A stretch of DNA of 64,000 nucleotides from Snuella sedimenti (GTDB taxonomy: Bacteria > Bacteroidota > Bacteroidia > Flavobacteriales > Flavobacteriaceae). A program made the position numbers and the translations under genes. The DNA is taken from assembly GCF_016428595.1 (NCBI RefSeq), contig NZ_JAELVQ010000002.1, forward strand, positions 124,001-188,000, in the 5' to 3' direction. Shown here in pieces: positions 46,173 to 56,440 of the stretch; the stretch's first letter is position 1; each line of letters starts with the position of its first letter. Below the pieces are notes generated by a model. It did no database searches and had not been told where the DNA came from. It was given only the letters and a program-made list of their open reading frames with translations.

Positions 46173-46392
46173 TAATGATTTGGTTTTTATGACTGTAAAA
46201 ATACAATTATTTACGAGTATAAAAAATGTTACTTGTTAACAAAGCGCATGCTTAATACTTAGTCCTAAATTTCTTATATTTATTAAGAATCTTTATTGAA
46301 GAATTATTTTGGTATTTTTCATTTTTAAGTGGGTAATATGATAAAAATCATATTTTTAAAAGCACTTTGAAGTTACTTTTGGTTCCTAAATT

Positions 46393-46409
46393 AGGATAAA
46401 ATTATCTTA
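46393..46409 (+). promoter_or_regulatory. Candidate NO-responsive operator before nirK
   Basis: AGGATAAAATTATCTTA, an imperfect dyad (14 of 18 with flanks). It is repeated with one base changed before ric (55897-55913) and in related form before the Rrf2 gene (56421-56440). It ends 33 bases before the chosen nirK ATG, within the likely promoter. Confidence 0.7.
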
Positions 46410-46442
46410 TTTGTAATGACCAACTTAATTAAACACATTATT

Positions 46443-47921
46443 ATGATACTAAAACAAGACAAGTTAAAAATTAAGCTATCAAGCTTTTTAGCCTATTTAG
46501 GATTAGTTACAGTACTACTTACTGTGTCGTGTGTAAACACAAAAAAGAAAACTTATGAAAATACGGCCGATATCCCCGTAAATAGAGAAATGGTGGCCGA
46601 GTTAACAGCACCCCCTCATGTACCTACACCTGTAGGAAAGCGTTTGGCTAAAAAATTAATAGTCAACATGGAAATCCTTGAAAAGGAAGGGGAAATGACC
46701 GATGGTGTAAAATACGTATACTGGACTTTTGGCGGTAGTGTACCTGGTAGTTTTATTAGAACCCGGGTGGGTGATGAGGTAGAGTTCACGTTATCCAATC
46801 ATCCAGACAATAAATTACCGCATAACATCGATCTACATGCTGTTACAGGACCAGGAGGAGGTGCAACATCGTCTTTTGTGGCACCTGGTCATGAAAAGAC
46901 GTTCAGTTTTAAAACATTAAACCCTGGTTTATATGTGTACCATTGTGCAACAGCTCCAGTTGGGATGCATATAGCGAATGGAATGTATGGTTTAATTTTA
47001 GTGGAGCCAGAAGGCGGCTTGCCTCCTGTAGATAAAGAGTATTACATCATGCAAGGTGATTTTTATACTAAGGGCGAAAACGGCGAGCCTGGTTTACAGG
47101 CGTTCGATATGAATAAGGCTGTTGATGAAGATGCCGATTATGTTGTATTCAATGGTAGTGTAAATGCACTAACAGGTGATAATGCGATTACGGCGAAAGT
47201 AGGAGAAACTGTGCGTTTATTTGTTGGTAATGGCGGCCCTAATTTAACATCGTCATTTCATGTAATTGGTGAGATATTTGACAATGTTTTCGTTGAAGGT
47301 GGTGACATGATAAATGAAAATGTGCAAACAACGTCTATTCCAGCTGGAGGAGCTGCTATTGTGGAGTTTAGAGTAGATGTGCCCGGTACTTTTATTTTAG
47401 TAGATCATGCTATTTTTAGGGCTTTTAATAAAGGTGCTTTAGGAATGTTAAAGGTAGAGGGTGAAGACAATAAAACTATTTACTCTGGAGTTGTTCAAGA
47501 AGGTATTTATAACCCAGAAGGAGGAGGCGTACAAACCATGCCAGATGATGGTAAAGCAAAACAAACTGTAGCAACTACAGAGAAGACCTTAGCAGAAAAG
47601 ATGGAATCTGGAAAACAAATTTATATGCAAACCTGTTTTGCCTGTCATCAGGCAGAAGGGCAAGGTATTCCTAATGCATTTCCTCCATTGGCTAAGTCAG
47701 ATTACTTAAATGCCAATGTAGATCGCGCTATAGAGATCGTACTCAAAGGAAAGACAGGAGAAATTACTGTTAACGGTGAAAAGTATAATAGTGTGATGAC
47801 AAGACAGTCGATAAGCAATGACGAAATTGCAGATGTATTGACCTATGTATATAACTCATGGGATAACAATAAAACCAATGTAACCAAAGCAATGGTTGAT
47901 CGTGTTAAAAGTGGGCACTAA
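46443..47921 (+). CDS. nirK: Copper nitrite reductase with C-terminal cytochrome c domain
   Basis: Reduces nitrite to nitric oxide in the periplasm (492 aa). The N-terminal signal ends near 'LLTVSC' and is perhaps lipid-anchored. Two cupredoxin domains follow. Type 1 copper ligands are seen in 'LPHNIDLHA' (first His), 'YHCATAPVGMHIANGMYG' (Cys, His, Met). Type 2 ligands are the His of 'DLHA', the His of 'YHC' and the His of 'LVDHAIFRAF'. Catalytic Asp (NID) and His (SFHVIG) are present. Residues about 390-485 are a cytochrome c domain (C-F-A-C-H, distal Met in 'YNSVMTRQ'), which would feed electrons directly. The ATG at 46443 is preferred over 46416 because it leaves the operator outside the gene. 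nirV follows after 20 bases. Confidence 0.95.
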   Translation: MILKQDKLKIKLSSFLAYLGLVTVLLTVSCVNTKKKTYENTADIPVNREMVAELTAPPHVPTPVGKRLAKKLIVNMEILEKEGEMTDGVKYVYWTFGGSVPGSFIRTRVGDEVEFTLSNHPDNKLPHNIDLHAVTGPGGGATSSFVAPGHEKTFSFKTLNPGLYVYHCATAPVGMHIANGMYGLILVEPEGGLPPVDKEYYIMQGDFYTKGENGEPGLQAFDMNKAVDEDADYVVFNGSVNALTGDNAITAKVGETVRLFVGNGGPNLTSSFHVIGEIFDNVFVEGGDMINENVQTTSIPAGGAAIVEFRVDVPGTFILVDHAIFRAFNKGALGMLKVEGEDNKTIYSGVVQEGIYNPEGGGVQTMPDDGKAKQTVATTEKTLAEKMESGKQIYMQTCFACHQAEGQGIPNAFPPLAKSDYLNANVDRAIEIVLKGKTGEITVNGEKYNSVMTRQSISNDEIADVLTYVYNSWDNNKTNVTKAMVDRVKSGH

Positions 47922-47941: not shown

Positions 47942-48712
47942 ATGAAAGCTGTTTTACGATTGACAATTTGCATATTGCTATTTTGGGTTCATCCGGCAGA
48001 TTGTCAATCTAAAATGGTAAAAATAAAAGGAGGAACCTATATTCCGCTTTACGGACGTGATTCATTAAAGGTTACTATTGTAGATTTCCAAATGGATGTG
48101 TACCCCGTAACTAATAAAGAATTTCTTGAATTTGTTAAGGCAAATCCAAAATGGCAACGCTCTAAAGTAAAAAAACTATTTGCAGACAAAAATTATTTAA
48201 AAGATTGGAAATCGGATACCGAACTAGGAGACCAACAATCATTAAAAGCTCCTATTACAAATATCTCATGGTTTGCTGCAAAGGATTATTGTGAGTGTCA
48301 AGGAAAACGTTTGGCAACAATAGATGAATGGGAATACGTTGCTATGTCGAATGAAACGATTCCTGATGCGAGAACATTGAAAAGTTATAATGAATTTATC
48401 TTGGGGTGGTACGAAAAGCCAAAAACCTTTAATAATGAAATTGGTTCCACATTTAAAAATTATTGGAATGTCTATGACCTACATGGTTTGGTTTGGGAGT
48501 GGACTTTAGATTTTAATTCGGTTTTAGTATCTGGAGAGTCGAGGAAAGATGTGGATAATGATACCAATTTGTTTTGTGGAAGTGCAGCAGTAGGAGCGAC
48601 CGATTTAATGAATTATGCAGCTTTTATGCGCTATGCTATTCGAGGTAGTTTAAAGGCTAAGTATGCCATGAAAAATTTGGGGTTTAGATGTGTAAGAGAT
48701 ATAAATGAATAA
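47942..48712 (+). CDS. nirV: NirV-like SUMF1/formylglycine-generating-enzyme family protein
   Basis: A protein of 256 aa with a signal peptide ending near PADCQ. The SUMF1 fold shows as 'MVKIKGGTYIPLYG', 'VDFQMDVYPVTNKEFLEFV', 'PITNISWFAAKDYCECQGKRLATIDEWEYVA', 'GLVWEWTLDF' and the terminal 'NLGFRCVRD'. Such genes directly after nirK are called nirV. The exact role in nitrite reductase maturation is unknown. The active-site cysteine pair of true formylglycine-generating enzymes is not evident. Confidence 0.85.
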   Translation: MKAVLRLTICILLFWVHPADCQSKMVKIKGGTYIPLYGRDSLKVTIVDFQMDVYPVTNKEFLEFVKANPKWQRSKVKKLFADKNYLKDWKSDTELGDQQSLKAPITNISWFAAKDYCECQGKRLATIDEWEYVAMSNETIPDARTLKSYNEFILGWYEKPKTFNNEIGSTFKNYWNVYDLHGLVWEWTLDFNSVLVSGESRKDVDNDTNLFCGSAAVGATDLMNYAAFMRYAIRGSLKAKYAMKNLGFRCVRDINE

Positions 48713-48714
48713 TA

Positions 48715-49431
48715 ATGAAGTACCTAAAATTTATTGTAGTACTGTTAGTTTTAACGGTTATTACTGCTTGTAAAGATAATGCTTCGCATAAAGTAAGTGA
48801 AGAGGAATCGGTTTATAAATGTCCTATGCAATGTGAAGGAAATAAAACCTATGCCAAATTAGAAGCCTGTCCGGTTTGTAAAATGGATTTGGTAATGGTT
48901 GAAAACCAAAGAACAAAATCAGTTGCAGACGATGTTATTTCAGATGAGTCTATTTTCAACCTTACAACTACCTGGCATACCGAAGAAGGGAGCACCGTTC
49001 AGCTTAAAGATTTAAAGGGGAAAACGTTGGTGATGGTTATGATTTATACAACATGTAAGGCGGCCTGTCCGCGTTTGGTAGCCGATATGCGAAATATTGA
49101 AGCCAAAATACCCAAGGATAAATTAAACGACCTTCAGTTTGTGTTGGTTAGTATCGATCCTAAAAATGATACACCTGCTCGTTTGAAAGCTTTTGCTAAG
49201 GAGAATTTTATGGATGGCGAACAATGGACATTTTTACAAGGCACAGAAAGTGGTGTAAGGGAATTTGCTAATGTACTTGCTGTAAAATATAAACAGATTT
49301 CACCTCTAGATTTTTCGCATTCCAATATTATTAGTGTTTTTAATTCAGGAGGCGAATTGGTTCACCAGCAGGAAGGTTTGGGAGTAGATAACAAAGAAAC
49401 CGTGGATAGTATTTTAAAACTGGTACAATAG
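48715..49431 (+). CDS. SCO1/SenC copper chaperone with N-terminal heavy-metal domain
   Basis: A lipoprotein (238 aa, lipobox 'VITAC', Cys19). Residues about 33-60 form a heavy-metal-binding-type module 'YKCPMQCEGNKTYAKLEACPVCKMDL' in character. The thioredoxin-like SCO domain (about 80-235) has the copper site 'TTCKAACPRL' (CxxxC) and the distant His in 'DFSHSNII'. SCO proteins deliver copper to cytochrome oxidases and other copper enzymes; here nirK is the obvious client. It is 2 bases after nirV, in one transcript. Confidence 0.92.
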   Translation: MKYLKFIVVLLVLTVITACKDNASHKVSEEESVYKCPMQCEGNKTYAKLEACPVCKMDLVMVENQRTKSVADDVISDESIFNLTTTWHTEEGSTVQLKDLKGKTLVMVMIYTTCKAACPRLVADMRNIEAKIPKDKLNDLQFVLVSIDPKNDTPARLKAFAKENFMDGEQWTFLQGTESGVREFANVLAVKYKQISPLDFSHSNIISVFNSGGELVHQQEGLGVDNKETVDSILKLVQ

Positions 49432-49558: not shown

Positions 49559-49957
49559 ATGATAAAACGTGTTTTACATAAAACAACCGTTGTTGTATTG
49601 ATTATTGCATTGTTGTTCAATAACATCAATACCTTGGTTATTATGGGACACTTTTTATGGAATCAAGATTTTATTGCCGCGACACTTTGTGTTCAAAAAG
49701 ATGACCAACAAGGGTGTAATGGTAAGTGTCATTTACAAGAGCAGTTGGCCCAAAACGATTCACGCTCTAATAATCAAGAAGCCCCTTTGCCAGAAAATAA
49801 ACCGCAATCATTAGATGTGTTTTACATAGCTAAGTCGAGCACTATCGAAATACAGTTTATACAAACGCTATTGCCTAAAATTGTACTGTCAAGAAACGTC
49901 TTCAAAATAACAAAAACAGCTTTGGCAGTAGAAACGCCACCACCAATTTTAAGCTAA
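49559..49957 (+). CDS. Small exported or membrane protein with CNGKCHL motif
   Basis: A protein of 132 aa. The N-terminal hydrophobic segment (about 11-33) acts as a signal or anchor. Then 'TLCVQKDDQQGCNGKCHLQEQL' gives three cysteines and a His in a compact motif (C, then CxxxCH), followed by a polar, Pro-containing region and a hydrophobic stretch. I recognise no named family. The Cys/His motif and location between SCO and the OprC-like receptor suggest metal (copper) binding, by inference only. Confidence 0.65.
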   Translation: MIKRVLHKTTVVVLIIALLFNNINTLVIMGHFLWNQDFIAATLCVQKDDQQGCNGKCHLQEQLAQNDSRSNNQEAPLPENKPQSLDVFYIAKSSTIEIQFIQTLLPKIVLSRNVFKITKTALAVETPPPILS

Positions 49958-50282
49958 TATTTATTTTTTAGAGACTGTTTAAATTTCAAAAATGGAATTT
50001 AAACAGTCTCTAAATCAGAAATGGTTTAAATCCAAATAGATTAACCTTTTCCGGCTTGCAAAAATAAGTTGGCTGGGAGGTAAATGGTATTCCTTAAAAT
50101 TAATTATAAACAAGTATTCATTACTATGGGCAGTTTGTGTAACGCCTGTAAATGGATTGCTTATACCTAACTTTTTAAATTTAAATTATCGTAAAATAAA
50201 GTATATGCTTTATTCGGTGATCTCAAAAAGTTACTGGGTATATACCCATGGTATAATACAATCATACCTAAAATTTAAGCAA
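49958..50282. other. Intergenic region with long perfect hairpin
   Basis: About 325 bases without a credible gene; an in-frame upstream extension of the next gene from 50157 lacks signal logic. It holds a 19-bp perfect inverted repeat (49967-49985 with 49996-50014, loop of 10) that is not followed by a T-run on either strand, so it is only partly terminator-like. The rest is featureless to me. Confidence 0.55.
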
Positions 50283-51128
50283 ATGAAATTAAAATATATA
50301 TTCCCAATCTTATTAGTTATTCTATTAATAACAGCATGTTCTACCGATAACGATGATACACCTGAACTAAATGAAGTTGAAGGTCTTTTAAAAATTCAAG
50401 AACTAACAAACGATAGCCATACCATAGAATTGTATACGGCATCGGGTAAATTTTATACTGGTTATAATGCGGTGAGTATCCGTATAAAAGAGCATAGTTC
50501 TGATACTTACGTATCTAATGCATCGTTAGTATGGAAGCCTATGATGCAGATGCCAAGTATGCAGCATTCATGCCCTAAATCGGTGATTGAAAAAGCGTCT
50601 GGAAAAAAGACAGTTTTCACAGGTTTTGTAATCTATCAAATGACCAATTTAGATGGTTCTGGTTGGACATTAACGATAGATTATTCTATTAACGGAGAAG
50701 ATTATTCGATTAGTGAAGCCATAACAGTTGAGCAAAGTGAAAAGAAAAATGTAACTAGTTTTATGGGAACCGATGACAAACGTTATGTTGTAGCCCTAAT
50801 TGAGCCTACTCAGCCTATTATTGGTGTAAATGATATTATAGTTGGAGTTTACAAAATGGAAAACATGATGTCTTTCCCTGTTGTAGAAGGCTATACATTG
50901 CATTCGGATCCTAGAATGCCAGGAATGGGTAACCATAGCTCACCCAATAATACCAATTTAACGTACAATCATGAAGAAGCCACATATCATGGAGAATTGT
51001 CATTAACAATGACAGGGTATTGGGTGTTAAACTTAAAACTTGCAAATGCAAAGGAAGAGGTACTTAAAGGCGAAGATGTAACAGAAGAGCATACGCAAAG
51101 TAGTTTGTACTTAGAACTCCAATTTTAA
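50283..51128 (+). CDS. Met/His-containing lipoprotein beside copper receptor
   Basis: A protein of 281 aa with lipobox 'LLVILLITAC' followed by STDNDD. The body has two beta-rich repeats (about 40-160 and 165-280), each with a Met/His-rich loop: 'WKPMMQMPSMQHSCPKS' and 'SDPRMPGMGNHSSP'. Such loops bind Cu(I) in other copper proteins. It is followed by the OprC-like receptor. A role as surface or periplasmic copper binder is inferred. The ATG at 50283 is chosen over 50157 because it creates a proper lipoprotein signal. Confidence 0.7.
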   Translation: MKLKYIFPILLVILLITACSTDNDDTPELNEVEGLLKIQELTNDSHTIELYTASGKFYTGYNAVSIRIKEHSSDTYVSNASLVWKPMMQMPSMQHSCPKSVIEKASGKKTVFTGFVIYQMTNLDGSGWTLTIDYSINGEDYSISEAITVEQSEKKNVTSFMGTDDKRYVVALIEPTQPIIGVNDIIVGVYKMENMMSFPVVEGYTLHSDPRMPGMGNHSSPNNTNLTYNHEEATYHGELSLTMTGYWVLNLKLANAKEEVLKGEDVTEEHTQSSLYLELQF

Positions 51129-51192
51129 TCGAAAAGAATTCCTTGAGGCTCTGACTCTGGGATAATTCGTTTCAAGAAATTCTTTATTAAAG
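51126..51192 (+). repeat. Dispersed hairpin repeat, copy A
   Basis: It begins at the TAA stop of the lipoprotein gene and is about 88 percent identical to 59388-59455. The central hairpin (TCCTTGAGGC...) is degraded in this copy. Shared blocks include TAATCGAAAAGAA, GAGGCTCTG and TTCGTTTCAAGAAA. Confidence 0.75.
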
Positions 51193-51214
51193 GAATATTT
51201 TGTTTTATAGATTA

Positions 51215-51268
51215 AGGTTGTCTAAAGTATGAAGAACAGAATTTAGCTTTTTAGGCTTTAGGCAACCT
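51215..51268. repeat. Inverted repeat before the copper TonB receptor
   Basis: AGGTTGTCTAAAG (51215-51227) pairs with CTTTAGGCAACCT (51256-51268), 13 positions with one G-U, loop of 28. It ends 30 bases before the receptor ATG, so it lies in its leader. No T-run follows directly. Regulatory or terminator-like; role unknown. Confidence 0.5.
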
Positions 51269-51298
51269 CACTTCCCGTCTTATTTTAATTTTTTTATT

Positions 51299-53299
51299 AT
51301 GCAAAAGATTGTATTAGTATACATTGGCGTTTTATTAAGTATGTCTGGTTATACCCAGCAAGGAGAGCAATTTATTAGAAAAGATACAACACAGTTAGAT
51401 GAAGTCATTTTAATTGGACAGCGTAAATTAAGCAATCATCGGCAAGAAAAAACACTCTCAAGTATTGATGATTATTTAGAGAAGTCGAACAAAATTACAA
51501 TGCTAAAGCGTGGTAATTATGCATGGGAAGCGACTTTAAATAATATGACGAGTGAACGTTTAAACGTGACCATTGATGGCATGCAGATTTTTGGAGCCTG
51601 TACCGATAAAATGGATCCCGTAACTTCTTATGTCGACGTTTCTAATTTAGAGAAGGTAACCGTCAATTCCGGTCAGCAGGGAGCTGAAAATGGACATAGT
51701 ATCGGAGGTGCTATCGATATGAAGCGACCATCATCAAAGTTTTATGATAAAGGTTTAACGACACATATCGATATGGGGTATGAGACCAATGGAAATTATG
51801 GAACCACTGGATTGGATCTGGAATATTCAGGTGATAAGTTTTATTTGAATACTGATGGTATATTTCGAAGATCAGATAATTATAAGGCAGGAAATCAAAC
51901 AGAGGTCTTCCATTCCCAATTTCAAAAGTATAACCTATCGTTACAAGGAGGCTATAAACTTTCCGATAGGCATATTCTGGAAACTAATATAATTTACGAT
52001 AAGGCTACGGATATTGGATATCCAGCTTTGCCAATGGATGTGTCTTTAGCAGAGGCATTAATAAGCTCTATAACGTATCGTTATAAAGGCCATCATTCAT
52101 TATTGCAATCATGGGAATCAAAGATATATTTTAATACCATAACCCATATTATGGACGATTCGCAACGTGACGATGTTGCCATTCGTATGGATATGCCTGG
52201 TTGGAGTGATACCTATGGGATTTATAGTAAAGCTGCTTTACATAAAGGGAAACATAAATTATTGATTAACCTCAGTAGTTTTTATAACAGGTCGATAGCA
52301 GAAATGACGATGTATCCCAATGACCCAAATCAACCGGATATGTTTATGTATACTTGGCCAGATATTAGAACATTTTATTCGGGAGTTTATGTTAAAGAAG
52401 CGTATGCTATTAATGCATTTGAAACGGTATCTGGGGCATTGCGTTTTGGTTATCATAACAATACCATTGCTAAGCAAACAGGTTTAGAGAGTCTTCAAAT
52501 CTTTTATCCAAATATAACAGATTCTAAAAATAGAATGCTGATGAGCCTTTCTGCAGATTATAAGTTAAGTGAGGATAGTTATGATGCTTCATTTGCACTT
52601 GGTTATGGAGAACGGGCACCTTCGGTAAGTGAAGGGTATGGTTTTTTCCTGTTTAACAGCTTCGATAATTATGATTACATAGGAAACCCAAACTTGAAAA
52701 AGGAAAAAAGCTTGGAGTTCCATGTCAATTCTAATTTTCATTTCGATAAACTAAAAATAGGATTAGAGTCGTCGTGCTTTTATATTTCGGATTATATAAT
52801 TGGAGATATAGATACCACTATAAATTCGATGACTATTGGTGCTGATGGCGTAAGGGTGTATAAGGCCATTGATTATGCTACAATTCTAGATGTTTATCTT
52901 GATGCCGATTATACGTTTAATAAAAGGTTTTCCATTAACAGTTCGGTTGGGTATAATTACGGAACTGGTAACGATAATATAAAGTTACCTTTAATTAGGC
53001 CCTTTTCATATTTGGCAGAGTTTAATTATAATAGCCTTGGGTTTAATGCTGCTTTGCAATTAGAAGGGAATGCTAACCAAAGTCAGTATAGTAGTTTTTA
53101 TGGTGAAGATAAAACACCTGCTTATGGTATATTAAACTTGAATTTAGGAAATATGTTTTATGTTAAAACTAATAAAGTGGTTTTAAAGTATGGTGTTGAG
53201 AATATATTAGATGCCAACTATTCAACATATGCCGATTGGAATAATATAGCAAGACAAGGACGGAATTTTTATATGAACGTGTCTTTTGTAATACGTTAA
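51299..53299 (+). CDS. OprC/NosA-like TonB-dependent copper receptor
   Basis: An outer-membrane receptor of 666 aa with a short signal peptide ending near GYTQ. The plug (about 45-150) contains 'FGAC101TDKM105DPVTSYVDVSNLEKVTVNSG', and the barrel contains 'THIMDD' (H283-x-M285). The CxxxM plus HxM residues are those described for the copper site of the OprC family. The barrel continues to a terminal 'NFYMNVSFVIR'. It would import copper for NirK and oxidases. It follows the Met/His-rich lipoprotein. No FecR/sigma pair is adjacent. The assignment to copper rests on these motifs and the neighbours. Confidence 0.85.
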   Translation: MQKIVLVYIGVLLSMSGYTQQGEQFIRKDTTQLDEVILIGQRKLSNHRQEKTLSSIDDYLEKSNKITMLKRGNYAWEATLNNMTSERLNVTIDGMQIFGACTDKMDPVTSYVDVSNLEKVTVNSGQQGAENGHSIGGAIDMKRPSSKFYDKGLTTHIDMGYETNGNYGTTGLDLEYSGDKFYLNTDGIFRRSDNYKAGNQTEVFHSQFQKYNLSLQGGYKLSDRHILETNIIYDKATDIGYPALPMDVSLAEALISSITYRYKGHHSLLQSWESKIYFNTITHIMDDSQRDDVAIRMDMPGWSDTYGIYSKAALHKGKHKLLINLSSFYNRSIAEMTMYPNDPNQPDMFMYTWPDIRTFYSGVYVKEAYAINAFETVSGALRFGYHNNTIAKQTGLESLQIFYPNITDSKNRMLMSLSADYKLSEDSYDASFALGYGERAPSVSEGYGFFLFNSFDNYDYIGNPNLKKEKSLEFHVNSNFHFDKLKIGLESSCFYISDYIIGDIDTTINSMTIGADGVRVYKAIDYATILDVYLDADYTFNKRFSINSSVGYNYGTGNDNIKLPLIRPFSYLAEFNYNSLGFNAALQLEGNANQSQYSSFYGEDKTPAYGILNLNLGNMFYVKTNKVVLKYGVENILDANYSTYADWNNIARQGRNFYMNVSFVIR

Positions 53300-53761
53300 T
53301 TATTTCCAGAATTCATCATCAAGTTTGTCTTCAAATGTAGACGGGCTATGGATGCTTTCAATGAGTAATAGTTGAGCATCGGTTGCTTTGTTTTGTATTT
53401 CAGGAAATAGAATACGTTCTTCAAATCTTATGTGTGCCTCAAGTGTTCCCTCAATATCGTTAAGCGTTTTTTCATCATATCTAGATGTGTTAAATAAATG
53501 CTCTAAATTCCTGTGTTCGGACAAAGCACGTTTTATAAGTTGGTTTTCCTCATTTAAAATAGGAAATATGTGTTTTTCCTCCATTTCAAAGTGTGGTACT
53601 AAATGTGTTTTAAAAAACCAATTGGTGTATGCTTTAATACGTTCAACGGGAATATTTTTACTTAGCCCACTGCGTATTTTCCACGATAATAATAAACCGT
53701 GATGGTGTTCTCTACTAAGAGGTTGTAGCGCTTTATGGCGTTTTAAGGGTTTTTTGTCCAT
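53300..53761 (-). CDS. Hemerythrin-like domain protein
   Basis: A four-helix protein of 153 aa. Di-iron ligands: His of 'REHHHGLLL', His and Glu of 'HLVPHFEMEEKHIFP', His of 'LSEHRNLEHLF', His and Glu of 'LEAHIRFEERILFPEI'. Such proteins bind O2 or NO or act in iron storage. The gene overlaps the end of the upstream membrane-protein gene by 29 bases and lies in a cluster for nitrite/NO metabolism, so NO handling is likely. Confidence 0.88.
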   Translation of the reverse strand: MDKKPLKRHKALQPLSREHHHGLLLSWKIRSGLSKNIPVERIKAYTNWFFKTHLVPHFEMEEKHIFPILNEENQLIKRALSEHRNLEHLFNTSRYDEKTLNDIEGTLEAHIRFEERILFPEIQNKATDAQLLLIESIHSPSTFEDKLDDEFWK

Positions 53762-54944
53762 GCGTTTTAGTTTTTAAAATATTGAATAGTAAGCTCATTA
53801 TACCAATGGGTAATAAAGCACTGAAAAGAAATAATAAGAGGTAGTAGTTTGGTATAAACCCTTTACCATAATAAAACATACCACCTTGTAACATTAAAAG
53901 CAATTCGGTTAAAACAAATCCAAAAATAAAGGTGTAGATGGCGAACGGTAAACTGCTATTACGGCTCACTAATTTACTTTGTAATATAAATGAAAATATA
54001 AAGCCCGATATAATACCCAATAGCGTTAAATGTATAAAACCAATAACGAAATTTCGATGTTGATAAATAACTTCCGATATATCTGGAAGTAGTGAAAGCG
54101 ACCGTAAGAGTATCTTTAAAACAAAACAAAAAATTGCAAAGCTATAAAGATGTACAACAAGCTTTGAGTGTTGTTTTAGTACCAATGGTAGCTTGGGTTT
54201 AATAAGTTGTAAAAAATGAAACAAGGCGACTAACTGAATAATGACGCCAATACCATTTATCCATAACAGACTGTTGTTTTCTATAAACCAGTAAACAGGC
54301 AAAGCAAGCGTTAAGATGGTAGAGGTAACTAAAAGTTTGAAAAAGACCCTAAACCTTTTTGAGTCGCGAAGCTGCAATAGGTGAAATAAAACAGCAACAA
54401 CCGCTATTATAAACCAACCGTTAAACTGGAAGTGCAAAAAGAATTGTATGGCGATTTGATAAAAGGCCGACGCTTGGCCTAACATCGATACAGCCGGTCC
54501 TAAACACCAAACACCTATAGTAGAAATCAACATAAAAATAAGCGAGGTTTTTAACAGGTACTTCGTTACCACCGATTCGGTTTTATGGTGTTTCCAGATA
54601 AGGTATACAAAATAATAACTACAAAAAATATGTAAGGTTGAGAAGCTAATGGATACAGCAGCATAACCTTGAATCGGGAAGCTTAGCATCATACCAATTA
54701 CTGCAAATTCGGTAAACCAAAATAGCCGATTATATATTGGACGCTTTTCTGGTATAAAAAAATGAACAAGCAATACATATAGCATTAAATACAGCCACCC
54801 TAGCATGGCTACGTGCGAATGCGCATGCGTTAAAAAGCGATAATTAAGTCCAATGGGCTGTATATAGGTGTAGCGCAAAGCCAGACCCATAAGGGCGGCA
54901 ATTAAAAAATTAATCAAGCATACAATTACTAGTCTTTTTTGCAT
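53733..54944 (-). CDS. Heme-copper-oxidase-subunit-I-like membrane protein, NO cluster
   Basis: A polytopic protein of 403 aa with about 11-12 transmembrane helices. Helix II carries 'LTHAHSHVAMLGWLYLMLY' (H40, H42, H44), a later helix 'LHFQFNGWFIIAVVAVLFH' (H171), and another 'HRNFVIGFIHLTLLGIISGFI', which aligns in wording with helix X of CcoN/NorB ('GHVHxGALGW') but with Phe in place of the first His. This suggests a distant, perhaps non-catalytic, relative of heme-copper oxidase subunit I. NnrS is an alternative. It is translated with the hemerythrin gene (29-base overlap). The biochemical role is unknown. Confidence 0.55.
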   Translation of the reverse strand: MQKRLVIVCLINFLIAALMGLALRYTYIQPIGLNYRFLTHAHSHVAMLGWLYLMLYVLLVHFFIPEKRPIYNRLFWFTEFAVIGMMLSFPIQGYAAVSISFSTLHIFCSYYFVYLIWKHHKTESVVTKYLLKTSLIFMLISTIGVWCLGPAVSMLGQASAFYQIAIQFFLHFQFNGWFIIAVVAVLFHLLQLRDSKRFRVFFKLLVTSTILTLALPVYWFIENNSLLWINGIGVIIQLVALFHFLQLIKPKLPLVLKQHSKLVVHLYSFAIFCFVLKILLRSLSLLPDISEVIYQHRNFVIGFIHLTLLGIISGFIFSFILQSKLVSRNSSLPFAIYTFIFGFVLTELLLMLQGGMFYYGKGFIPNYYLLLFLFSALLPIGIMSLLFNILKTKTHGQKTLKTP

Positions 54945-55150: not shown

Positions 55151-55882
55151 TTATGTAAACTGTTTTTCTAATTTAATGGCTTTGGGAAATAAAATGTTAT
55201 TCTCTAAATGAATATGTAAATGCAAATCCTTTTCAAATTCTTCTAGCATTGCAAACGTTACGCGGTATGTATTACAGGCATCAGCTGGAGGCGTATAATT
55301 ATTTGTTAGTTCTGCAATTTTTCTAAAACGCTCTCCTTCATTGTCATGTTCCTGCATCATCATGGTAATTGGATTTTCAACCGTTCCAAATTGAGGTGCT
55401 TGTATTGGATTTTGATCTAAAGTTGCTTGCACCATTTTTTTTACGAAAGGGAATAATATCAATTCTTCTTTTTTCATATGGGCAGCTAATTCCCTGGAAG
55501 ATGCCACGAATAAAGCGTTTATTTCTAATAGTTCCCGATGCCTTTCACCATGAACACGGCATAATTTATCTAAAAATTGTCTCAGTACGGGAACTTTTTC
55601 TTCTACATACCTATGATGTTTCTTTTCTATATATTCTGTAAGCAGATCTAAAGGCCATGACTTGTAATCAATAGACTGGTTTGCTGAGGTATTTATAACA
55701 CTGTTTAGTTTATCTAATAGTTCGTCGCTGTCTATTCCTTTTTTTTCGCAAACCTCTTCAATGGTTCTCTGGCCTTTACAGCAAAAATCAATACCATAGT
55801 TACTAAATATGGCAGCTGTTCTATAATCTTCGGCTACAAATTGTCCGATTTGTTTTTGTGAATTGTTGTTTAATACTTCCAT
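55151..55882 (-). CDS. ric: Iron-sulfur cluster repair di-iron protein (Ric/YtfE/ScdA)
   Basis: Repairs Fe-S clusters and relieves nitrosative stress. The 243-aa protein has an N-terminal DUF542/ScdA_N part with 'IFSNYGIDFCCKGQRTIEEVC' (double Cys) and a hemerythrin-like di-iron domain (His in 'YIEKKHHRYV', 'VHGERHREL', 'HMKKEELILFPF', 'QEHDNEGERF', 'HLHIHLENNILFP'). The candidate operator AGGATAAAATTGTCTTA sits 15 bases before its start, matching the one before nirK. It is downstream of the Rrf2 regulator gene but has its own control region. Confidence 0.95.
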   Translation of the reverse strand: MEVLNNNSQKQIGQFVAEDYRTAAIFSNYGIDFCCKGQRTIEEVCEKKGIDSDELLDKLNSVINTSANQSIDYKSWPLDLLTEYIEKKHHRYVEEKVPVLRQFLDKLCRVHGERHRELLEINALFVASSRELAAHMKKEELILFPFVKKMVQATLDQNPIQAPQFGTVENPITMMMQEHDNEGERFRKIAELTNNYTPPADACNTYRVTFAMLEEFEKDLHLHIHLENNILFPKAIKLEKQFT

Positions 55883-55896
55883 AATGCTATTTATTT

Positions 55897-55913
55897 AGGA
55901 TAAAATTGTCTTA
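55897..55913 (-). promoter_or_regulatory. Candidate NO-responsive operator before ric
   Basis: AGGATAAAATTGTCTTA read on plus (ric is on minus). It differs from the nirK copy at one base, and the flanking TTA and TTTGT are shared as well. It lies between the Rrf2 stop and the ric start. Confidence 0.7.
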
Positions 55914-55937
55914 TTTGTGATTAAATTTTTTTGTTCT

Positions 55938-56378
55938 TTACGTAATAGTTTTTAAAAAGGAAGCTCCAGATTTTATATTAAGTGCTAATTCTTCAAGACT
56001 TGTGTGTTCTAACATGTGTTTGAGTTCGTCTCGTACAACTTTAAATTTATCATGTACAGGGCAGGGTCTGTTTTCATCGCAGGTATGAAGCCCTAAACCA
56101 CAACCATTATAAATCTTGTCGCCATCAATTGCATTCACAATCTGTGATAATTTAATTAAAGCAATGTCCTTTTTGTCTATTTCAAAACCACCATAAGCGC
56201 CTTTTACCGAATTAATGACACCGTGCCTTACTAAGGCTTGCAAAATTTTGGCAGTAAAAGCTTGGGGGGAATCAATTTCTTCGGCTATTTCTTTAGGACT
56301 AACACGTTTACCTTCAAAAGAGTTTATCGCTATAAAAATAGACGCCTTAATTCCATATTCACAAGCTTTTGAAAACAT
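55938..56378 (-). CDS. Rrf2-family transcription regulator, probably NO-sensing (NsrR-like)
   Basis: A regulator of 146 aa. The winged helix-turn-helix is 'MFSKACEYGIKASIFIA...VSPKEIAEEIDSPQAFTAKILQALVRHGVINSVKGAYGGFEI'. The cluster loop has three cysteines, 'NGCGLGLHTCDENRPCPVH' (C-x6-C-x5-C), as in NsrR/IscR. An Fe-S cluster destroyed by NO would release repression. Its neighbours are ric, the hemerythrin and nirK, and a 20-base dyad lies 43 bases before its own start, suggesting autoregulation. Confidence 0.88.
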   Translation of the reverse strand: MFSKACEYGIKASIFIAINSFEGKRVSPKEIAEEIDSPQAFTAKILQALVRHGVINSVKGAYGGFEIDKKDIALIKLSQIVNAIDGDKIYNGCGLGLHTCDENRPCPVHDKFKVVRDELKHMLEHTSLEELALNIKSGASFLKTIT

Positions 56379-56420: not shown

Positions 56421-56440
56421 TTAAGACAAATTTATCTTAA
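56421..56440 (-). promoter_or_regulatory. Candidate operator before the Rrf2 regulator
   Basis: TTAAGACAAATTTATCTTAA, palindromic at 18 of 20 positions. It shares the A(A/G)GAyAAAwTTrTCTTA core with the nirK and ric sites. Confidence 0.65.

Follow-up and report, generated by a model that had tools for sequence, protein, structure and literature searches.

Does the copper-uptake gene group behind nirK in Snuella sedimenti belong to nitrite reduction, and what does the small gene at its head do? The window, that is, the whole 64,000-nucleotide stretch analysed here by computation (assembly GCF_016428595.1, contig NZ_JAELVQ010000002.1, positions 124,001 to 188,000; coordinates below count from its first letter), carries three genes, hereafter the module, behind a nirK-nirV-sco trio. 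They encode a small protein of 132 amino acids (aa), proposed here to be a nascent-chain copper sensor and called the leader (49559..49957, + strand), a lipoprotein with two CrdA/YtkA-like beta-sandwich domains and Met/His loops, as read from AlphaFold2 and fold matches (50283..51128, +), and an OprC-type TonB-dependent receptor with the ligands C101, M105, H283 and M285 (51299..53299, +). The best explanation, which we consider quite probable, is that the module moved from a nos (nitrous oxide reductase) cluster to the nirK-nirV-sco operon and is governed by a copper-responsive leader. We also incline, if only modestly, to the wider view that a non-DUF2946 family of Bacteroidota nascent-chain copper sensors heads many copper-acquisition operons and couples uptake to both nitrogen-oxide respiration and copper scarcity.

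The linkage of the module was surveyed in 199 Flavobacteriaceae genomes, apparently one per genus, which were searched for the receptor, the lipoprotein, the small protein, nirK and nosZ; the counts take no account of phylogeny. The receptor clade was defined by at least 40% identity to the window receptor, and a simple script calling the longest open reading frames (ORFs) supplied the neighbouring genes. Neighbourhoods were also fetched, 20 in each case, from the 38 loci with weak receptors, the 65 orphan small-gene loci, the 34 further nirK places and the 62 nosZ places that lack the receptor. The receptor clade and the lipoprotein are carried by the same 39 of the 199 genomes and adjoin each other. 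Among these carriers, nosZ lies within 8 kb of the module in 16, whereas nirK lies within 14 kb in four, namely the window (3.8 kb), G134 (1.7 kb), G013 (12.2 kb) and G080 (13.7 kb). The last three also have nosZ alongside, and linkage to nirK only is thus confined to the window (1/39). An attachment of the module to nirK, as proposed in an earlier note on this DNA, is therefore not supported as the rule.

Gene order and phylogeny agree with a nos origin. In 12 of the 15 closest relatives the module lies 5.4-7.8 kb from nosZ, and the other three are without detectable nosZ. The order in the relatives is cytochrome c, fasciclin-domain protein, nosZ, a conserved 200-aa protein, nosL, nosD, nosF and nosY, followed by the small gene, the lipoprotein and the receptor; nosF and nosY, like norC and norB below, are names that we assume from position. 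The small gene starts 127 bp after sco in the window and at most 59 bp after nosY in three relatives. The nos cluster of the window's own genome is on another contig (C1), where it stands without the module and is followed by norC and norB. In a maximum-likelihood tree the window receptor falls into a 100/100-supported clade of 16, which comprises ten nos-linked receptors, two linked to both nos and nirK, three linked to neither and the window receptor itself. nirK as the native partner of the module was rejected on the linkage, gene-order and tree evidence. A 149-aa lipoprotein-like gene without a Pfam family was seen between nosY and the small gene in L031 and L035-L038, and in L035 a 605-aa ORF stands there as well.

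The genes in front of the module form a unit of their own. nirK (46416..47921, +) encodes a copper nitrite reductase with a C-terminal cytochrome c (Cytochrom_C) and scores 356.7 bits against TIGR02376, over the cut-off of 296.3. It is followed by a gene for an FGE-sulfatase-domain protein (47942..48712, +; PF03781, E 5.8e-30) in the nirV position, which we presume to be nirV, and by the SCO gene (48715..49431, +; PF02630, PF19335), so that six genes from nirK to the receptor run on the + strand. Both nirK and the SCO gene lie outside 49559-53299, where the ORFs are 49559-49957, 50157-51128 and 51299-53299, all +. The trio nirK-nirV-sco was found in 23 of 24 nirK loci (19 of 20 further ones plus four), the exception being on a 5.8-kb contig. 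SCO, which the earlier note had counted with the module, hence belongs to the nirK trio, and the module is an addition to the nirK locus. What was borne out is that a nirK locus with an SCO gene also holds an OprC-type receptor and a lipoprotein of copper type.

Two results weigh against a preference for nos. nirK occurs in 18 of the 39 carriers and in 19 of the 160 non-carriers, nosZ in 31 of the carriers, and the odds ratios (6.4 for nirK, 6.6 for nosZ, kinship ignored) show the two genes to be equally associated with the module. Moreover, the fetched stretches around 13 of the 39 modules contain no mapped copper enzyme. It is physical linkage, not co-occurrence, that sets nosZ apart from nirK. 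The earlier note had regarded regular occurrence of these genes without copper enzymes as fatal to its reading; for nirK this was partly found, with 21 of the 39 carriers lacking it, and for copper in general it was not. Both nirK and nosZ are absent from five carriers, and in four of these MbnP and MbnH adjoin the module.

Relocation might still have been selected for NirK supply, which would make the module a dedicated NirK supplier in this genome. We regard this as unlikely, although the 3.8-kb distance, the enrichment of nirK among carriers and an Rrf2-type operator on nirK speak for it. The receptor is the sole detected copy of its kind in the genome and nosZ is on another contig, so that it presumably serves all copper enzymes, and the nirK-only arrangement was met once in 39 modules.

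The receptor is ordinary and the nirK linkage derived; the interesting and testable part of the module is the leader. Its 132 residues begin with a hydrophobic helix, continue with C44 and CNGKC (53-57) and end in TPPPILS. The gene is present in 104 of the 199 genomes, often beside receptors of about 25% identity. All 82 members compared contain CXXXC, and all have PP within their last 22 residues, as against 39 of 1962 other ORFs, at a distance of 66-73 residues from CXXXC. A hydrophobic N-terminus was detected in 78 of the 82 by a crude scan. In an alignment of 38 members (hand-picked for spread from the 82, as were 32 of the 39 lipoproteins for theirs), C44, C53, G55, C57, L59 and P128-P129 are invariant, and mean pairwise identity is 0.58 in the cysteine region and 0.14 in the linker. 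The next gene lies on the same strand in 82 of 82 cases, compared with 1303 of 1750 control neighbour pairs, and the small gene is always directly upstream of its partners, though lipoprotein and receptor swap order. No Pfam or NCBIfam family was found for 38 members at E up to 10 and no relative in the PDB; in PHROGs neither the small protein nor the lipoprotein had a match.

The fetched orphan small genes are followed immediately by receptor plus PepSY_TM, MbnP-MbnH, a PF13557 barrel and other genes; their partner types were assigned by Pfam for representatives only and otherwise by size and N-terminal similarity. A profile search found the small protein in 117 of 296 Bacteroidota genomes, a set that overlaps the family set. 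CXXXC and a PP-bearing end were present in all 30 phylum loci retrieved, and the next ORF there was on the same strand in 27 and on the opposite strand in two, the stretch ending first in one. Many of the genes after these leaders encode OprC-type receptors or MbnP-MbnH, and one of the stretches contains an SCO gene.

Some of these loci hold further candidates. In six of the 20 orphan loci the leader heads an outer-membrane barrel of about 340 aa whose N-terminal stretch resembles DGHAPIS.MGDH, a candidate second copper porin: PF13557 was matched in L158:6449-7462, and similar genes in L145, L150, L154, L157 and L161 were recognized by size and N-terminus. Lipoprotein-like proteins of about 145 aa with an HDE.M motif and no convincing Pfam family have a leader upstream in L162:6348-6779 and L163:6444-6884. 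Two leader genes per locus were seen in L066, L067, L068 and L162.

In the earlier note the small protein was a 'CxxxCH' protein in a complete import-to-insertion route for copper. The cysteine spacing was confirmed, whereas the following histidine is not conserved (H 33, Y 27 and Q 12 of 82), and the CxxxCH relay reading was dropped on this ground. A relay may also be conceived more generally, the small protein being a membrane-anchored periplasmic carrier of copper from the receptor to SCO and NirK. The invariant cysteines could bind Cu(I), the N-terminal helix could serve as membrane anchor or export signal, and the protein constantly neighbours copper receptors. We nevertheless consider such a relay improbable. 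The most conserved distal element is the C-terminal PP, held at a fixed spacing across an unconserved linker; AlphaFold2 was confident for the N-terminal helix region only and predicted no fold after residue 71. The gene keeps its upstream place while lipoprotein and receptor exchange theirs, and the variety of partners (receptors, MbnP, PepSY-linked receptors, barrels) suits a regulator better. The conserved features are those of a nascent-chain sensor, and the complete route is not supported in the form proposed.

Two proteobacterial systems offer a model for such a sensor. CruR of Bordetella pertussis is described as a leader with CXXC, a C-terminal RAPP, near-fixed spacing and a C>G bubble, the latter reported in connection with Rho termination, and CruR-type operons contain TonB receptors, OprC-type receptors, PepSY_TM and MbnPH (PMC9426467). 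The Bacteroidota leader is likewise the first gene of copper-uptake operons and shares a putative N-terminal export signal, a cysteine motif, PP at the C-terminal end, a near-fixed Cys-PP spacing, a C>G bubble and a closely overlapping list of partners. The 3' two-thirds are richer in C than in G in 73 of 82 leaders, compared with 87 of 380 size-matched ORFs. CutF of Rhodobacter capsulatus has CXXXC and a proline-rich end; it works through a stem-loop and switches on a copper oxidase (PMC9973294). The leader resembles it in CXXXC, the C-terminal proline motif, the short, presumably exported protein and the same-strand gene downstream. The same paper lists CutF-like proteins in bulk for Bacteroidota, also upstream of TonB-type genes, using as filters a length below 150 aa, PP in the last 15 residues and a same-strand gene within 1000 nt (PMC9973294). 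The window leader passes all three, and 78, 81 and 82 of the 82 family members pass them, respectively. Because it has the same place and CXXXC/PP anatomy without homology, we read the leader as a CruR/CutF-like sensor, one that probably works like these proteins, to judge by analogy, without being a DUF2946 member. As controls, a DUF2946 protein with CGYC...RAPP was found directly before an OprC-type TonB copper receptor on a Pandoraea plasmid, and a protein with CPFC...RGPP directly before an OprC-type TonB receptor on a Thioclava plasmid. A survey of RAPP/RGPP leaders reports copper-related leaders to be missing from Bacteroidota (PMC12992588), which fits the variant motif of the Bacteroidota leader.

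Several results weigh against this likeness. The motif is CXXXC and not the CXXC of CruR, the end is mostly [H/T/K/R]PP with no Arg-Ala before PP, and the Cys-PP spacing is 66-73 compared with 45 in CruR/CutF. Homology with DUF2946 was not found by hhalign (E 0.66 and 0.38), and PF11162 (DUF2946) matched none of 38 leader members at E up to 10. It was also found in none of the 199 family genomes, Caulobacter serving as the positive control, and on the Pfam, genome-scan and hhalign results the leader was rejected as a DUF2946 homologue. The C>G excess is in part an amino-acid effect and shrinks at third positions (+3.7 vs +0.6, p 7e-4). Regions after leaders fold no more strongly than control intergenic regions (median z -1.8 vs -2.6), and the window's strong hairpin turned out to be one copy of a dispersed repeat. 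A Bacteroidota promoter consensus was uninformative upstream of the small gene (3/82 vs 10/410 shuffles).

The hairpin in question, near-perfect and 3' of the small gene (49959-50022), is one copy of AGAGACTGTTTAAATT, which has 84 matches genome-wide at no more than one mismatch, many of them paired about 147 bp apart and inverted, like a miniature inverted-repeat transposable element. It was rejected as an attenuator on this count and because the stretches following other leaders show no stronger folding than controls. A further copy is found shortly before the genome's own nos operon (C1:302631).

As to the direction of control, the CruR sense, in which copper turns uptake off, is favoured by the downstream uptake genes and by the excess of C over G. 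Control in the CutF sense, with copper promoting the pause and turning the downstream genes on, appears rather remote. It would account for CXXXC, which is the CutF motif, and for the passage of most members through the published filters (PMC9973294). On the other hand, the downstream genes serve uptake, which copper would hardly be expected to induce, and the C>G bubble suits Rho; the CutF mechanism is disfavoured because a conserved stem-loop, unlike in CutF, was not found after the leader.

The receptor aligns with crystallised OprC (6fok) at E 1.4e-21. The alignment confirmed the earlier assignment of C101-x3-M105 and H283-x-M285 to the OprC copper-ligand positions, columns that are also marked by the OprC mutant entries M147H and M325H. 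All four ligands are invariant in the 39 clade receptors, which is far from chance, and so are the barrel methionines M246, M297, M299, M336, M338 and M348. A caveat to the copper assignment is the score of 141.2 bits against the TIGR01778 TonB-copper equivalog, where 472.45 are needed; because of this shortfall, the receptor is classed from its sequence as OprC-type only, not as a TIGR01778 member. It resembles Pseudomonas OprC/NosA (PMC8610252) in the aligned CxxxM-HxM site and the full-length barrel alignment, and the reported link of NosA to nitrous oxide reductase (PMC8610252) parallels the nos linkage seen here. It differs in being a distinct lineage with ACTDKMDP that is accompanied by a two-domain lipoprotein. 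Another counterpart is the OprC-like receptor G2EC70 of Bizionia argentinensis, also Flavobacteriaceae, which has CxxxM-HxM and is listed near NosL and CcoG; leader and lipoprotein are not mentioned in the parts of that account covered here (PMC11213822).

The receptors of about 25% identity, with ACPNRMDP and HxM, are a second OprC-type lineage, as both ligand pairs are present in 20 of 20 fetched; the view of them as unrelated TonB receptors was rejected on the same C-x3-M and H-x-M. The small gene is directly upstream in all 20 loci. In the most distant sub-clade of the window receptor's own clade (L060-L068, 40-42% identity), MbnP and MbnH follow in 9 of 9 loci, and this combination is possibly a copper-acquisition operon.

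For the lipoprotein, ATG 50283 is the likelier start: it yields a signal and lipobox whose Cys19 is invariant among all 32 aligned members, whereas TTG 50157 is just the start of the longest ORF. Two Met/His loops had been proposed, and both were recovered, the second (DP[RQ]MP..M..H type) in 39 of 39 relatives and the first (MQM/MHM..H.CP type) in 28. AlphaFold2 with 32 relatives gave an all-beta model of two domains (mean predicted local distance difference test score 90.7). The N-terminal domain (34-149) matches CrdA (9ll2) with Z 13.2 and a root-mean-square deviation of 2.6 over 105 of 108 residues, the next-best match having Z 8.9; in Foldseek, CrdA ranks 19th of 50 by E-value, yet clearly first by target-normalised TM-score (template modelling score, 0.75). 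By sequence profile the second domain matches CrdA at E 0.0032. At E up to 0.1, all 32 members match Pfam YtkA (best 4.8e-12), and the window protein, at 23.1 of 25.9 bits, lies just below the gathering score. CrdA of Helicobacter pylori is reported to bind copper via a Met-rich loop containing MPGM (PMC9182242). The lipoprotein shares the fold in domain 1, the profile match in domain 2 and an MPGM-type Met-rich loop; its two domains, the His and Cys in its loops and its setting in uptake instead of efflux set it apart (PMC9182242). Because of the CrdA-like fold and profile and the conserved Met/His loop, it is a likely, predicted Cu(I) binder. That the receptor takes up a copper chelate (CrtA-like or chalkophore) or another metal instead of ionic copper is very doubtful, for the low overall identity to OprC, the TIGR01778 score far under the cut-off and the receptor-PepSY_TM pairs headed by other leaders, as in Bordetella (PMC9426467), are set against four invariant OprC ligands, a CrdA-like partner and the association with MbnP-MbnH.

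Outer control of the locus was approached through palindromes of the type ARGAYAwwwwTRTCYT, which precede nirK (46391..46408, core AGGATAAAATTATCTT), the RIC gene (55897..55914) and the rrf2 gene (56421..56440) in the window, none with a strand assigned, as well as the genome's own nos operon. Across the loci the palindrome was found before rrf2 in 28 of 35 cases, the nos lead gene in 28 of 47, nirK in 11 of 24, RIC in 10 of 20 and norC in 4 of 11, but before the small gene in 4 of 82, the lipoprotein and the receptor in 0 of 39 each and other genes in 2 of 275. The Rrf2-family regulator (55938..56378, - strand; PF02082) likely reads these operators. Judged from its family and neighbours, a nitrogen-oxide-type control would act on the enzymes. 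Since the operators sit at the enzymes and rarely at the module, the module would feel this control only via read-through.

These elements can be joined into a mechanism. The receptor would capture copper at its OprC-type Cys/Met/His/Met site and import it with TonB energy, and the lipoprotein would bind Cu(I) beside it and then hold it or pass it on. The leader, while being translated and exported, would sample copper via CXXXC just outside the membrane, and the ribosome would pause at the PP close to the leader's C-terminus. By the tunnel and membrane lengths quoted in PMC9973294, a spacing of 66-73 residues would have CXXXC beyond the membrane by the time the ribosome arrives at PP. Under copper scarcity the pause would permit expression of lipoprotein and receptor; with copper present it would be released and expression would stop, probably by Rho-dependent termination. 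Were the six genes co-transcribed from the nirK operator, the receptor would be expressed only when nitrogen oxides are respired and copper is scarce.

OprC-type receptors in flavobacteria have already been published (PMC11213822). In a literature search with partial coverage, no description of the module, of the tandem CrdA-like lipoprotein or of the leader was found. If our reading is true, many Bacteroidota copper-uptake operons are controlled during translation, the leader family follows proteobacterial logic without detectable shared sequence, and an unnamed gene in over a third of the sampled Bacteroidota is accounted for. Nitrous oxide reductase needs much copper and flavobacteria are nitrous oxide sinks; for this reason the nos linkage matters, and it points to a candidate copper receptor for nitrous oxide-reducing flavobacteria. 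Treating the module as nirK biology would mislead annotation.

Downstream of the receptor the genes run on the - strand. A hemerythrin-domain protein (53300..53761; PF01814) comes first and the RIC/ScdA/YtfE iron-sulfur repair protein (55151..55882; TIGR03652, 250 bits, over the cut-off) precedes the Rrf2 gene described above. Between hemerythrin and RIC is encoded a 403-aa membrane protein (53733..54944) without a Pfam or NCBIfam match, for which the label NnrS has no backing from any family search. Its family is present in 16 of the 23 fetched loci that hold RIC.

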